Positions 15,238 to 19,221 of a stretch of DNA of 64,000 nucleotides are shown one piece after another (the first letter of the stretch is position 1; each line of letters begins with the position of its first letter). Under the pieces are notes generated by a model. It was not told where the DNA came from. It saw nothing but the letters and a program-made list of their open reading frames with translations, and did not search any database. Made by a program: the position numbers and the translations under genes. Source of the DNA: Flagellimonas sp. CMM7 (GTDB lineage Bacteria > Bacteroidota > Bacteroidia > Flavobacteriales > Flavobacteriaceae); contig NZ_CP090003.1 in assembly GCF_021390195.1 (NCBI RefSeq), forward strand, positions 2,220,001 through 2,284,000, read 5' to 3'.

Positions 15238-15630
15238 TTAGTCTGTGGTTTTATTATCAATACGCCAAGGCGGGTTTAACCTGTTTTCTCCAGCATGGTA
15301 TAGAATGATTTGATTTCCATCCATATCTTTTAATCTTGCTTCTCGCCAAAGCCACGGTCTATCACTGGGAGGCTCGTCAAAAACGATTCCTTTTTGGGTG
15401 AGGTCGGCTACATACCCATCCAGATTGTCGCACTCAAAATAGACATAAATACCATCGCCTTTTGGCAATTGTTCCGCCAAATGTATAGAAAAAGTGGCAG
15501 GCCCATCTGGGCACTCAAAACGAGCATAATGGGGTAGGGCCTTTACGATTAGGGTTAACCCCAGTTTTTCATAAAAAGGGATTGATTTTGTTAGATCTAA
15601 AGAGGGGACGGTTATTTGGTTGAGGTTCAT
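15238..15630 (-). CDS. VOC family (glyoxalase-fold) protein
   Basis: A 130-residue single VOC domain built of paired beta-alpha-beta-beta-beta modules: LTKSIPFYEKLGLTLIV opens the first, and GIYVYFECDNLDGYVADL opens the second. The REARLKDMDGNQIILY C-terminal strand carries the typical D-P/M-D-G-N end with the candidate metal ligand. Members include glyoxalases, dioxygenases and antibiotic-binding proteins; no substrate can be inferred. It ends 9 bases upstream of the secreted duplicated-domain gene. A truncated copy of the attC-like repeat lies 14 bases upstream of its start. Confidence 0.8.
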   Translation of the reverse strand: MNLNQITVPSLDLTKSIPFYEKLGLTLIVKALPHYARFECPDGPATFSIHLAEQLPKGDGIYVYFECDNLDGYVADLTQKGIVFDEPPSDRPWLWREARLKDMDGNQIILYHAGENRLNPPWRIDNKTTD

Positions 15631-15643
15631 TGTTTGTAATTGC

Positions 15644-15670
15644 GGTTATACATTGTCGTACGCAGTTTTT
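15644..15670. repeat. Truncated copy of the attC-like repeat
   Basis: Plus-strand GGTTATACATTGTCGTACGC then AGTTTTT matches 20 of 27 positions with the right end of the full element at 16461-16487, including the terminal CGCAGTTTTT. The core GTTGGGC is degraded here to GTCGTAC. It lies just past the stop of the DHFR-like gene, where a cassette boundary would be expected. Confidence 0.5.
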
Positions 15671-15695
15671 ATTTCTATCAGCACTACTTCATTCC

Positions 15696-16256
15696 TTATT
15701 CGTAATTCACTGAATATTTTACCTGGACAAAGTCATTAGCAAAAGCACTTGCTTTAGCTTTTTCAAGTTTAATGTCTTTTAATGTTTTTCCAAATAAAGG
15801 AATTCCTTCTCCAAGTAATACAGGAACTTTGGTTATGATTATTTCATCAATCATTTGAAGATTAATAAAGGATTGAATAGTTTTCCCCCCATCTATATAG
15901 GCATGCTTGAAACCTTCTTTTTCCAATGAAGCAACCAAGCTGTTAATATCTCCGGAGTACATTTCTATTTTTCCTTTTAGATTGTCAGGGGCTTCTTTTA
16001 TCGTGTTGCTTAATACAACAATGCGCAGGTCACCGTAAAACCATTGCTCAGGTGTCAAATTCATATTGGAAATCATTTCCATACACTTTCGTCCCATAAT
16101 CATACAATCTACAGAATCCATAAAAGCTTGAAATCCCATATCTTCTGTTCCCATATCAGCTTCCAAATCACCTGACGTATGCAACCAATCAACATTCCCG
16201 CCTAGTTTGGCAATAAAACCGTCTACACTCGTAGCTATATAAACTGAACACTTCAT
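15696..16256 (-). CDS. Dihydrofolate reductase family protein (RibD C-terminal-like)
   Basis: A 186-residue cytoplasmic protein of the RibD C-terminal/YwjB-YyaP branch of the DHFR superfamily. Visible motifs are the N-terminal SVYIATSVDGFIA strand-loop, WLHTSGDLE, the NADPH-site MIMGRKCMEM helix, VVLSNT, HAYIDGGKTIQSF and PVLLGEGIPLF. It is probably a NADPH-dependent reductase of unknown substrate; it is not the housekeeping folA. It is flanked by the full attC-like palindrome upstream (16284-16478) and a degraded copy downstream (15644-15670), so it looks like a cargo gene acquired as a cassette. DHFR-like genes are common cargo in mobile cassettes, which fits. Confidence 0.85.
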   Translation of the reverse strand: MKCSVYIATSVDGFIAKLGGNVDWLHTSGDLEADMGTEDMGFQAFMDSVDCMIMGRKCMEMISNMNLTPEQWFYGDLRIVVLSNTIKEAPDNLKGKIEMYSGDINSLVASLEKEGFKHAYIDGGKTIQSFINLQMIDEIIITKVPVLLGEGIPLFGKTLKDIKLEKAKASAFANDFVQVKYSVNYE

Positions 16257-16280
16257 ATCTGATTTCTATTTTTTTAATGG

Positions 16281-16482
16281 CATACAACGGTACGGCTAAG
16301 CGTAGTGCGGAGGCAAGGAAACCTTTCGTTTCCGTCTGTGCACGAAGCTAAAGCTTATTGTTTTGCTTTTTCTTTTTTTGTTCCAAAGCTAAATCTATAA
16401 GATTTAGCGACATTATAAATATACACTGACCTTACGGTTTTGCCCTAAAGTCCGCATTACGTTTAGGTATTGTTGGGCGCAG
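16281..16482. repeat. attC-like imperfect palindrome between two cassette-type genes
   Basis: A non-coding stretch. The left arm 16285-16311 pairs with the right arm 16451-16475: 25 pairs including G-T pairs, with two unpaired G residues (16294-16295) in one arm. The ends carry CAAC (16285-16288) and GTTG (16472-16475), and GTTGGGC at 16472-16478 fits the integron core consensus GTTRRRY. The 139-base loop holds a perfect hairpin, GCTAAATC/GATTTAGC (16388-16408), and GGAAA/TTTCC (16317-16333). Paired core ends, bulged bases and a variable loop are the architecture of integron attC sites. No integrase gene is in the window. Confidence 0.6.
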
Positions 16483-16598
16483 TTTTTCTCCGTACGAGTG
16501 CGCGTTTTTCATCACGTTTTGCTTTGATTTTTTCTGTCCGAGTTAGAAGTCCATCTGCAACAGCTGCGTTTGAGTGAAGTCCATTTAATCAAACTTGC
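16483..16598. other. Non-coding segment after the attC-like site
   Basis: Together with 16257-16482 this makes the only intergenic stretch over 300 bases. This part has no convincing coding frame, hairpin terminator or promoter. It lies between the 3' end of the small lipoprotein gene and the attC-like palindrome. Confidence 0.5.
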
Positions 16599-17042
16599 TC
16601 AAGGTTTTTTTCGAAGGTTTATTCTCTCGACTAAAATTGCATTAAAACGGATGTCAAAATCACTATTTACATTCTCAATTTCCATTGAGCGAACAAAATC
16701 CTCCATTTCTCTACCGAGTTGCATTTTGTCAAAAGTCAATAAACTGTCAAGATTATATTTTCCAACTACACTTCGTACGCCTGACCTAACAATAGATTCT
16801 GCTAAATCGTCACTTTTATTATTCTCAGAAATGAAGAAGCCTTTTTCATCAAAAAGATGTTCTCTCTTGGACTCAAAAACATAAAAAATCCGTGAATATG
16901 TTATTAACTCCTTTCCATCTTTGGACAGGGCAGTTGTTTCCACTAGATTTTCAAATTGTCTCGATTCCTTATTAGTTTTTCCAACACAGCCAAGAATAAA
17001 AATCATTAGAATTAGTGTTGATAGAATTTTACTGCTTTTCAT
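16599..17042 (-). CDS. Small lipoprotein with SPFH/prohibitin-like segment
   Basis: A 147-residue predicted lipoprotein: hydrophobic signal LILMIFIL then G-C at residue 18. The C-terminal half (VRSVVGKYNLDSLLTFDK, then MQLGREMEDF and FNAILVERINL) resembles the second half of SPFH/band-7 domains, where V-R-x-V-V-G-x-Y and I-L-V-E-R-I-x-L are recurring. The protein ends abruptly four residues later at RKKP, inside a run of seven A, where full SPFH proteins continue into a coiled coil. It may be truncated or a short variant. Inverted copies of GTTGGGCGCA bound it (16472-16481 and 17064-17073), as for a gene cassette. Function unknown. Confidence 0.6.
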   Translation of the reverse strand: MKSSKILSTLILMIFILGCVGKTNKESRQFENLVETTALSKDGKELITYSRIFYVFESKREHLFDEKGFFISENNKSDDLAESIVRSGVRSVVGKYNLDSLLTFDKMQLGREMEDFVRSMEIENVNSDFDIRFNAILVERINLRKKP

Positions 17043-17063
17043 ATTAAAATGGATGTTTCAAAT

Positions 17064-17073
17064 TGCGCCCAAC
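17064..17073 (-). repeat. Cassette boundary core (inverted GTTGGGCGCA)
   Basis: Plus-strand TGCGCCCAAC is the exact reverse complement of the right end of the attC-like element at 16472-16481. It lies 21 bases upstream of the small lipoprotein start. No full palindrome accompanies it, so it may be the upstream boundary of the cassette unit. Confidence 0.45.
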
Positions 17074-17160
17074 TTGTTTATATAGATGTAAAATACATTC
17101 GTATACCCCTAAATATAGTGGATAATCGCTGTATTTTGTAAGTGATATTTGTGATTTTAG

Positions 17161-19221
17161 TTAGAAAAGATAGGCGATTCTTGCACCTCCATAAAAGTTT
17201 CTGTCGTTACCGGGATAAAAATAACGAGGCAGGGCACCACCAAAACTGGAGGCATTGATCAATACAGATTGAGCGTAATTCGTATCAAACAAATTGTTTG
17301 CTCCAATATTCAATCCTAGCGAAAAATGAGAAGATAAACTGGTCCGGTAGGCCAGCTTGGCATTAAAGACATTAAAAGATTCACTATCCAAGGTATTGGC
17401 ATCCGTTAGGGGAATCTTATCCACAAATTGATGGGTAAGGTTCAGTTGCAGGCCATTGGTATGGCGTAAATCCAGACCAGAGGCAATCCTATTTTTGGGG
17501 ACACCTGTTAGCGGATTGCCAGAAAAATCATTTTCACCATCCACAAAATCCACAAAGCTATGGTCGCTCAAGGTATAGCTGAGGTAAGGAGAAAGTACCA
17601 TCTTTGGAGAAAGCCGTAACGCATATTTGACATCCACCTCTAAACCTTGGTGACGCGTTTCACCAGCATTCCTGCCGATAAATTGGTCTTCGCCCACCCG
17701 TTGGGCAACCAGCAGGTCGTTAATATTCATCCTAAATGCCGTGAGATTAAGGGATAATTTCTTTTTTAAAAGCGCAACATAAGCACCCAGCTCATAATTG
17801 GTCCCGGTTTCTTGTGCAATATCAGGATTGATCACCCCATCTGGTGTTAAGGTTTCTTCTAAGCTGGGATTGGAAAAGCCGCGACTTATATTGGCATATA
17901 CCTGTCCATTTTTAAAGAGGTATTGCAATCCAAAATTCGGCAAAAGAATTGCATCAAAATCCCGTTCTGCGGAAGTGTTTTCATTTCCTTGATTGAACAG
18001 GTCTTGGAAGTTATAGTTGGTCTTGTTAAGGTTGAGCCCTAGTTGTGCCGAGAATGATGGTGTAAAAGGATAGGTGAAAGATCCAAACAAATTTAACTGC
18101 CTTCTAAACTCCCGGTTTCTACTCAGGCGATCTCCTTGTAAACTGCCATTGCCATTGTTATCTTGGAACAAGTTCTGAAAAGTGCCCCAGTGGTATTCGT
18201 CCTTATAAAGCTCTCCTCCCAAAGTGTATTGTGCCTTGCCCAAATTTCCTTCAAATTGGCTGCGCAATCCAAAACCGTTGGTAAACTCATCTAAAATGTT
18301 AAATGGGCGTGGCTCGTAGTGGTCCAAGTACGAATAAAAAATACTTGTAGTATTTTTTAGGTTCTGATTGAATTCATGTGAATATGATATTCCTGCCAAG
18401 GTATATTTGTTTGCTTCAAAACCTTGTGCGGCCAACCAATTGCCTGCAGCTCGGGTAGGGTCTTCATCAAAATCTGTTTGATTAATGGAACTTGGAATCT
18501 GAGCGGTGTAATCTATATAGTTGATCAGTACCCCCAAGCTGCCTTTGGAACTAATTTTAGCGTTGGTATTCAGTAAAAAACCATCACGATCAAAGTTGTT
18601 GTTTTGTCTGTACCCATCGATTTCAAAATGATTGTAGCTAAAGGTTAAATCAAAGTTTTGCTGCGAATGTTGAAAGGAAAGATTCTCTTTTAACATGCCA
18701 TAAGAGCCTACAGTAAAGCTATTGGCCAGTTTGGTCTCTTCAACTTGAAGGTTTTTGGTGTCCAATAATATGGCACCACCCAAATTGGCTCCAAAGGAGG
18801 TGGCTTTTGGTCCTTTGATGATTTCAATGGACCCCAGGTTTTCAAAATCAAAGGCTTCAATGGTTGATGATCCCGTGCCATTGGTAACGGGAATACCATT
18901 AAAATACAAACGAAGCTTGTCCGTGCCAAAGGGTGTTCGTGCACCCACACCTCTAATGGTAATCCTATTGGTGTTTAAAGCGCCAGAGAGAATATAAACT
19001 CCAGCCACCTGATTCATGGCGGAGGCAATATCTATAGGATTGAATTTTTCAAAAGTAGCAGGACCAATAGTTGAGGCAGCTGTAATTCCTGTTGCTTTCT
19101 TGGCAATCACATCTTCTATGAGAATAATCTCGTCCAATTGGGTAACAGAATCTTTTTTAACCTCCTGTGCAATCAGTTGTGCGATAAAAAGTGAGAATAG
19201 AATTGAAAAAAGACCTTTCAT
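17161..19221 (-). CDS. TonB-dependent receptor
   Basis: A 686-residue outer-membrane receptor with signal peptide (FSILFSLFIAQLIAQ) and a candidate TonB box (LDEIILI, about residues 29-35). The plug domain (about 45-160) shows NRITIRGVGARTPFGTDKLR, GIPVTNGTGSS, IEIIKGPKATSFGANLGGAI. A 22-strand barrel follows, ending RIAYLF with the terminal Phe needed for barrel assembly. No carboxypeptidase-like N-domain, so it is the classic FecA/iron-type rather than the SusC type. Substrate cannot be read; a metal chelate is plausible. The secreted Gfo/Idh/MocA gene lies 43 bases upstream on the same strand. Confidence 0.92.
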   Translation of the reverse strand: MKGLFSILFSLFIAQLIAQEVKKDSVTQLDEIILIEDVIAKKATGITAASTIGPATFEKFNPIDIASAMNQVAGVYILSGALNTNRITIRGVGARTPFGTDKLRLYFNGIPVTNGTGSSTIEAFDFENLGSIEIIKGPKATSFGANLGGAILLDTKNLQVEETKLANSFTVGSYGMLKENLSFQHSQQNFDLTFSYNHFEIDGYRQNNNFDRDGFLLNTNAKISSKGSLGVLINYIDYTAQIPSSINQTDFDEDPTRAAGNWLAAQGFEANKYTLAGISYSHEFNQNLKNTTSIFYSYLDHYEPRPFNILDEFTNGFGLRSQFEGNLGKAQYTLGGELYKDEYHWGTFQNLFQDNNGNGSLQGDRLSRNREFRRQLNLFGSFTYPFTPSFSAQLGLNLNKTNYNFQDLFNQGNENTSAERDFDAILLPNFGLQYLFKNGQVYANISRGFSNPSLEETLTPDGVINPDIAQETGTNYELGAYVALLKKKLSLNLTAFRMNINDLLVAQRVGEDQFIGRNAGETRHQGLEVDVKYALRLSPKMVLSPYLSYTLSDHSFVDFVDGENDFSGNPLTGVPKNRIASGLDLRHTNGLQLNLTHQFVDKIPLTDANTLDSESFNVFNAKLAYRTSLSSHFSLGLNIGANNLFDTNYAQSVLINASSFGGALPRYFYPGNDRNFYGGARIAYLF

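Follow-up and report, generated by a model that had tools for sequence, protein, structure and literature searches.

An imperfect palindrome lying between two small genes of Flagellimonas sp. CMM7 is very probably the attC of an integron-type gene-cassette system, and the two genes very probably sit in true integron-type cassettes. The window, by which we mean the whole 64,000-nucleotide stretch analysed, reads on its minus strand, in this order, a TonB-dependent receptor gene, an attI-like block, GTTGGGCGCA, a lipoprotein gene, TGCGCCCAAC, the palindrome, GTTGTATGCC, a DHFR/RibD_C-like gene, a truncated attC and a VOC gene. The integron gene-cassette layout that a sequence-only reading of this DNA had proposed was borne out by further copies of the site in the genome and genus, by a conserved fold and by arrays next to a tyrosine recombinase.

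All features of the locus lie on the minus strand. The attI-like site (17073-17131; family alignment A6, 30 sites) has its exact core at 17073-17096 and belongs to the attI type of loci L180, L190 and L293, where the same block precedes the first cassette downstream of a recombinase gene. Cassette 1 (785 bp, 16288-17072) extends from the TT after the attI G (17073) to the G of its own attC; we set its start at the GTT whose G is 17073, with the cut presumably between G and TT. It carries a gene for a small lipoprotein-like protein of 147 amino acids (16599-17042), which matched nothing in Pfam or NCBIfam at E ≤ 0.001, and a complete attC-type site (16279-16481) with R'' at 16472-16481 and R' at 16279-16288. 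Its start, GTTGGGCGCA, is complementary to its own R'', TGCGCCCAAC, at 10/10 positions. Cassette 2 (15636-16287) starts at the TT of GTTGTATGCC and encodes a 186-amino-acid protein of the dihydrofolate reductase/RibD C-terminal family (15696-16256; PF01872, 9e-15), a 36% identical relative of which lies between two attC sites of L186, the Flagellimonas plasmid counterpart. It ends in a truncated attC (15636-15665) that retains only R'' (15655-15664) and the beginning of the left arm; by eye, the cassette start matches this remnant R'' at 7/10 positions, or at 9/10 with G.T pairs. The 21 nucleotides at 15636-15656 are common to attCs elsewhere, and in 17 other distinct copies this sequence is followed each time by an identical block, apart from a single change in one copy; in the window it passes directly into the start of the VOC gene. 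The insert has a G+C content of 35%, compared with 38% for the window, and is flanked by a VOC/glyoxalase-like gene (15238-15630) and by a gene at 17161-19221 that we take, from the label of the sequence-only reading and general knowledge of the sequence, to encode a TonB-dependent receptor. No Rfam family scored above its gathering score in the window.

The paired arms and bulged G described for the palindrome were found, the latter as a bulged GG, and for the plus strand of 16276-16487, the equivalent of the cassette bottom strand, the predicted folding energy is -33.8 kcal/mol (shuffled mean -21.3, z -3.9, with 1/200 shuffles as good). The arms alone give -13.6 kcal/mol on the bottom strand versus -10.6 on the top strand; the difference comes from the bulged GG and from several G.T pairs, each of which turns into an A.C mismatch when the other strand folds. 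The exact inverted repeat reported at 17064-17073 is also real: the window contains two copies of GTTGGGCGCA, at 16472-16481 (+) and 17064-17073 (-), with 0.05 expected. Related sequence had further been claimed for both outer boundaries, and here the resemblance holds (75% over 32 nucleotides for that at 15644-15670) but the boundaries themselves prove to be a truncated attC and an attI-like block. Judged by its sequence, we classify the window palindrome as an attC-type recombination site.

The attC family came to light only through relatives and covariance models. Within its own genome, the site gave mostly chance-like BLASTN matches, and a 27-base pattern with up to three mismatches recovered the window copy only. 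BLASTN with a 231-bp region (E ≤ 1e-4) detected related DNA in 14/59 genomes, the own genome among them, often as several copies with a few kilobases between them. We built alignment A1 and covariance model R1 from 16 copies, and alignment A3 and model R2 from 32 shorter ones. Counting a change as compensatory when at least one sequence had both sides altered with the pair kept, we found such changes at 10/25 predicted pairs in A1 and 10/13 in A3, so the attC fold that had been anticipated is conserved as a prediction. Covariance models had been suggested as the way to further copies, and R1 indeed matched 54/60 genus genomes at E ≤ 1e-3; in the window's genome it identified 14 sites at E ≤ 1e-4, a number that rises to 17 at E ≤ 1. 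The E-values of both models are approximate, and the sequences used to build each model necessarily match it. The window's site has the top R1 score in its genome but is among the source sequences of R1. At the level of the phylum, R2 matched 123/296 genomes at E ≤ 1e-4.

Members of the family are multicopy and mostly 145-215 bp long. R1 gave 90 matches in 20 fetched regions, all on a single strand per region save one palindrome read on both, whose reverse-strand duplicate (L178 7706) was excluded from the box, cassette, attI-start, fold and ORF counts. By predicted folding only, the bottom strand was the more stable in 69/84 sites (84 of 89 were used, those shorter than 120 nucleotides being excluded). 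The GTT and AAC of the R boxes are largely conserved while the outer bases vary, and the boxes often differ from strict RYYYAAC/GTTRRRY. Some sites in L062, L067, L169 and L170 end in CGATAAGTG and not in CGTT, possibly through secondary-site integration or as another cassette class.

In integrons, the two ends of a cassette derive from one circle, so that its start, from the GTT onwards, is the complement of the R'' at the other end. The attC sites found elsewhere form one-directional cassette arrays, with a median spacing of 975 bp, in which the start (GTT...) matches the cassette's own R'' box. Comparing seven variable positions and requiring six or seven to agree, we found this match in 36/53 neighbouring R1 sites (those with a readable GTT and AAC box less than 3 kb apart) versus 165/6172 other combinations, and, with R1 and R2 sites combined, in 56/72 neighbours versus 277/9892 other pairs. 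An R2 site splits 11/17 of the R1 neighbours that failed and 0/36 of those that passed. The longest ORF runs along the array direction in 53/59 intervals, is opposed to it in two and is shorter than 50 amino acids in four. These data bear on a rival account, by which the palindromes would be nothing more than common repeats between genes (REP- or MITE-like elements, or transcription terminators) and would not recombine as cassettes. Repeated hairpins placed between genes would look much as these palindromes do, but such repeats would leave unexplained the match of each start with its own R'', as well as three observations described below: a one-cassette difference with junctions at the attI GTT, the pairing (by eye) of attI types with recombinase clades, and the link to a recombinase. 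We therefore regard this account as extremely improbable.

The DNA just ahead of the first cassettes falls into types, and these types pair, by eye, with recombinase clades (L180 with L293, L172 with L175, L176 with L185, L183 with L184 and L179 with L182). We located the start of the first cassette through the R'' of the first attC, with no mismatch in 28 and one in 10 of 38 usable loci, a set drawn from 40 sites after removal of two that lacked AAC; L186 and L237 each had an ambiguous best start, and in L195 and L261 the DNA ahead of the start resembles the end of another attC, not attI. L282 was excluded from alignment A5. A 26-base attI core, allowing up to three mismatches, occurs at 72 places in 39/60 genus genomes, with none for the reversed control. 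Among 30 of these places that we fetched and inspected (L307-L336), 14 have an attC match within reach, all 16 matches lying downstream; at 28/30 the 1.5 kb upstream is free of any related recombinase, and cassette-like starts follow. We rejected the idea that the block simply marks an integrase gene, as a recombinase match lay in those 1.5 kb at 2/30 places, one of them a match of 67 residues at 43%; by coordinates, two places outside the 30 (G031:C102 and G011:C12) also adjoin a recombinase. We likewise rejected the idea of the block as the 3' end of a single conserved gene, since the upstream ORFs fall into 22 clusters across the 30 loci.

Two loci from different genomes differ by one cassette. 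L181 and L177 are identical at 900/900 bases ahead of attI, where L177 has an extra cassette of 1246 bp; 755/760 bases then agree and the arrays differ beyond. The junctions lie at GTT, the exact cut being unreadable because both cassettes begin GTTG. Such a difference is what either insertion at attI or excision from that site would be expected to leave. Both the position of attI and the one-cassette difference point to it as an entry site for new cassettes, as in integrons.

A tyrosine recombinase gene adjoins the array at 15 genus loci, namely L167 in the window's own genome and 14 others, most of them chosen for attC matches already seen nearby (L185 and L186 were not); none does so at the window locus. 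The gene is divergent from the array in some loci and co-directional in others. These recombinases, which we take from the alignment and general knowledge to carry the catalytic residues of the family, have a KGxKDR-HxxR spacing of 58 residues in 12/12 genus proteins and of 58-63 in 29 others, versus 100 in three canonical IntI and 66 in 20 XerC/D-like controls (measured with a slightly looser motif). All 41 measured enzymes lack the additional domain of IntI, which is held to be necessary for IntI activity. The expectation of a tyrosine recombinase with an IntI-type insertion was thus half right: the recombinase adjoins the arrays, and the insertion is absent. Four recombinases scanned against TIGR02249 reached 185-206 bits, in two pieces, versus a cut-off of 265. 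The XerA-type model NF040815 was the best NCBIfam match for 3/4 array recombinases and was above its cut-off in 1/4; its name, 'site-specific tyrosine recombinase/integron integrase', is a label that NCBI already gives to some of these enzymes. An extra N-terminal region of about 100 residues is present in 7/12 aligned genus proteins. By Foldseek, the model of an Arcticiflavibacter relative (pLDDT 86) is closest to solved XerA and IntI4 structures, and a tree gave no firm separation of the domain-less enzymes, as one clade, from IntI (support 68/76, with long branches). Such domain-less recombinases occur across Bacteroidota and on plasmids.

Recombinase and attC tend to occur together. Matches to attC were present in 13/20 regions around domain-less recombinases (L187-L206) versus 2/20 around XerC/D-like genes, one of these two (L224) having been chosen with knowledge of a nearby attC. 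In six of the seven recombinase regions without a detected attC, the contig ends about 1.3 kb or less from the recombinase. Among the best 80 of a larger number of named-record loci, 35 had attC matches, on one strand per locus, and these included Winogradskyella, Arcticiflavibacter, Seonamhaeicola, Algibacter, Algoriphagus, Rufibacter and Flavobacterium psychrophilum. In one metagenome-assembled genome labelled as the gammaproteobacterium Methylophaga (L302), attC matches lie next to a related recombinase, with mis-binning possible. Across 296 phylum genomes, 73 had both recombinase and attC, 21 the recombinase only, 50 attC only and 152 neither; attC was thus absent from 21/94 recombinase-positive genomes and present in 50/202 recombinase-negative ones, some of the 50 attC-only genomes carrying canonical IntI. 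The table for the window's family alone is cleaner, since the phylum rates pool different classes and draw on no more than 10 scored attC candidates per genome, and since we chose the recombinase limit of 1e-65 by eye, from the gap to Xer-like scores. Of 30 sampled family genomes, 22 had both, none the recombinase only, one attC only and seven neither (p 4e-6), which amounts to attC in 22/22 genomes with the recombinase versus 1/8 without.

Canonical IntI, above the curated cut-off, is present in 84/296 phylum genomes and can share a genome with a domain-less recombinase. This leaves room for a scenario in which a canonical IntI from elsewhere moves the cassettes and the domain-less recombinases lie nearby by chance. 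No canonical IntI exceeded the cut-off in the 60 sampled genus genomes, however, and the 86 genomes listed with an IntI match include none from the window's family, one being marked 'same class' and the rest 'same phylum'; canonical integrons thus exist in the phylum, with none found in sampled members of the family. In addition, all 15 genus loci that we examined have the domain-less enzyme beside the start of the array, and the attI type tracks the clade of that enzyme (by eye). We consider a canonical IntI in this role very unlikely and regard the platform built around the domain-less recombinase, as classified from sequence, as a variant form of integron.

If the integron reading is correct, a tyrosine recombinase would excise circular cassettes, each of a gene and an attC, and insert them by joining attC, as a folded bottom strand, to a partner site, either a double-stranded attI or a further attC. 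Joining would take place at the GTT triplet, with the cut probably between G and TT; the enzyme is presumably active and the bottom strand presumably the one used. Between the TonB-receptor and VOC genes of the window there would be an attI-like site followed by two cassettes, the second of which later lost part of its attC, and no integrase gene lies close by. Against the integron reading we counted the absence of the additional domain, the looser R boxes, the fact that the clade of the window's attI is not among the matches listed for its own genome, the attI-like loci without a recombinase (28/30), the imperfect co-occurrence in the phylum, the regions without attC (7/20) and an empty site known from one relative.

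In that relative (G059), 57 bp separate the TonB-receptor gene from the VOC gene, in line with the empty site that the sequence-only reading had proposed to look for; G059 is the sole such comparison because synteny around the VOC gene is gone in most relatives. Across 20 VOC-gene loci, each taken with 1.5 kb on either side, sequence matching the insert occurs only at the window's own locus, and at 0/19 of the others. The reading had also seen no integrase in view, and our genome searches found no array-type integrase in the window; the nearest belongs to L167, 1.18 Mb away, an integron with an intact 382-amino-acid recombinase, attI and three detected sites, whose genes are of nitroreductase, monooxygenase, peroxiredoxin-like, ArsR and AHSA1 families. 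The L167 recombinase falls outside the clade that accompanies the window's attI type (L180, L293), and no member of that clade is among the matches listed for this genome. Such distance from the genome's integron, the missing clade among those matches and the truncated second attC would all suit a dead relic, a cassette pair inserted once and now fixed and immobile, which would be compatible with the integron reading. The first attC, in contrast, is complete and the best-scoring in the genome (by a model built with it), and it could still serve as substrate for a recombinase supplied in trans. We put the relic at slightly short of an even chance.

Sedentary chromosomal integrons (Vibrio, Xanthomonas) and mobile ones (class 1) resemble the loci described here in that attI adjoins the recombinase gene, cassettes of gene plus attC stand in tandem with GTT boundaries and a per-cassette R''/R' match, the bottom strand is predicted to fold better and the genes are mostly small and co-directional. 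Here, in contrast, the recombinase lacks the additional domain, attC often exceeds 200 bp, the orientation of the recombinase relative to the array varies and the R boxes, of about 10 bases, follow a looser consensus. XerA-type recombinases (NF040815) are alike in being the top NCBIfam match for 3/4 enzymes and in heading the fold comparison together with IntI4, but the enzymes here are tied to attI and cassette arrays, and 7/12 have the N-terminal extension. Like CALIN, which are attC clusters without an integrase, the window cassettes have no nearby integrase; unlike them, the window has one complete and one truncated attC plus an attI-like site, whereas IntegronFinder 2 requires a CALIN to have two or more attC sites (PMC9024848).

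Bacteroidota are already known to have integrons (PMC9024848, PMC8618304, PMC9668308, PMC2426708); for Bacteroidetes, the IntegronFinder 2 paper mentions an earlier study with only In0 elements and then a complete integron in Salinibacter (PMC9024848). Within the open-access literature covered (among it PMC9024848, PMC8618304, PMC9668308, PMC5458099, PMC2426708, PMC8352920 and PMC8876359), no such system is described in Flavobacteriaceae. Two earlier surveys picked IntI by the additional domain (PMC2426708, PMC8352920), which is the domain absent here, and the gene-capture system of many Bacteroidota genomes could therefore be overlooked. We consider it likely that Bacteroidota harbour a second integron lineage, whose integrases never had or have lost the additional domain and use clade-specific attI sites, that integrase-less chromosomal attI platforms seat cassettes far from the enzyme, and that domain-based surveys miss this system. 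Recognition of attC without the additional domain thereby becomes testable, and the system offers a possible route for gene movement among flavobacteria, which in one plasmid case involves the resistance gene erm(F).

Mobile integrons of the Tn402/Tn21 type are carried by transposons and plasmids. In likeness to these, an identical 272-amino-acid recombinase is found on plasmids of Flagellimonas and Arenibacter, the Flagellimonas plasmid having an array with erm(F) and an adjoining Tn3-family transposase gene; the difference is that the plasmid recombinase and attC belong to the system reported here. On the mobilizable Flagellimonas marinaquae plasmid (L362; NZ_CP092416.1, 6972-12819), the integron recombinase is accompanied by a DHFR-family cassette, erm(F) lies in the attI-proximal cassette in the direction opposite to the array, and the array adjoins the Tn3-family transposase gene. 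The Arenibacter algicola plasmid (L361; NZ_CP022516.1, 6265-7173) encodes the same 272-amino-acid recombinase with the same attI end, and the two plasmids, from different genera, share replicon and relaxase type. Elsewhere, the right array ends of L177, L181, L185 and L186 have a common GTTGTAGTGTCATAAAACGAAC sequence, which is possibly a Tn3-type transposon end. Finally, an 8.6-kb array region of L176 and L177 is 99.95% identical across two genomes, a near-identity that suggests recent transfer.
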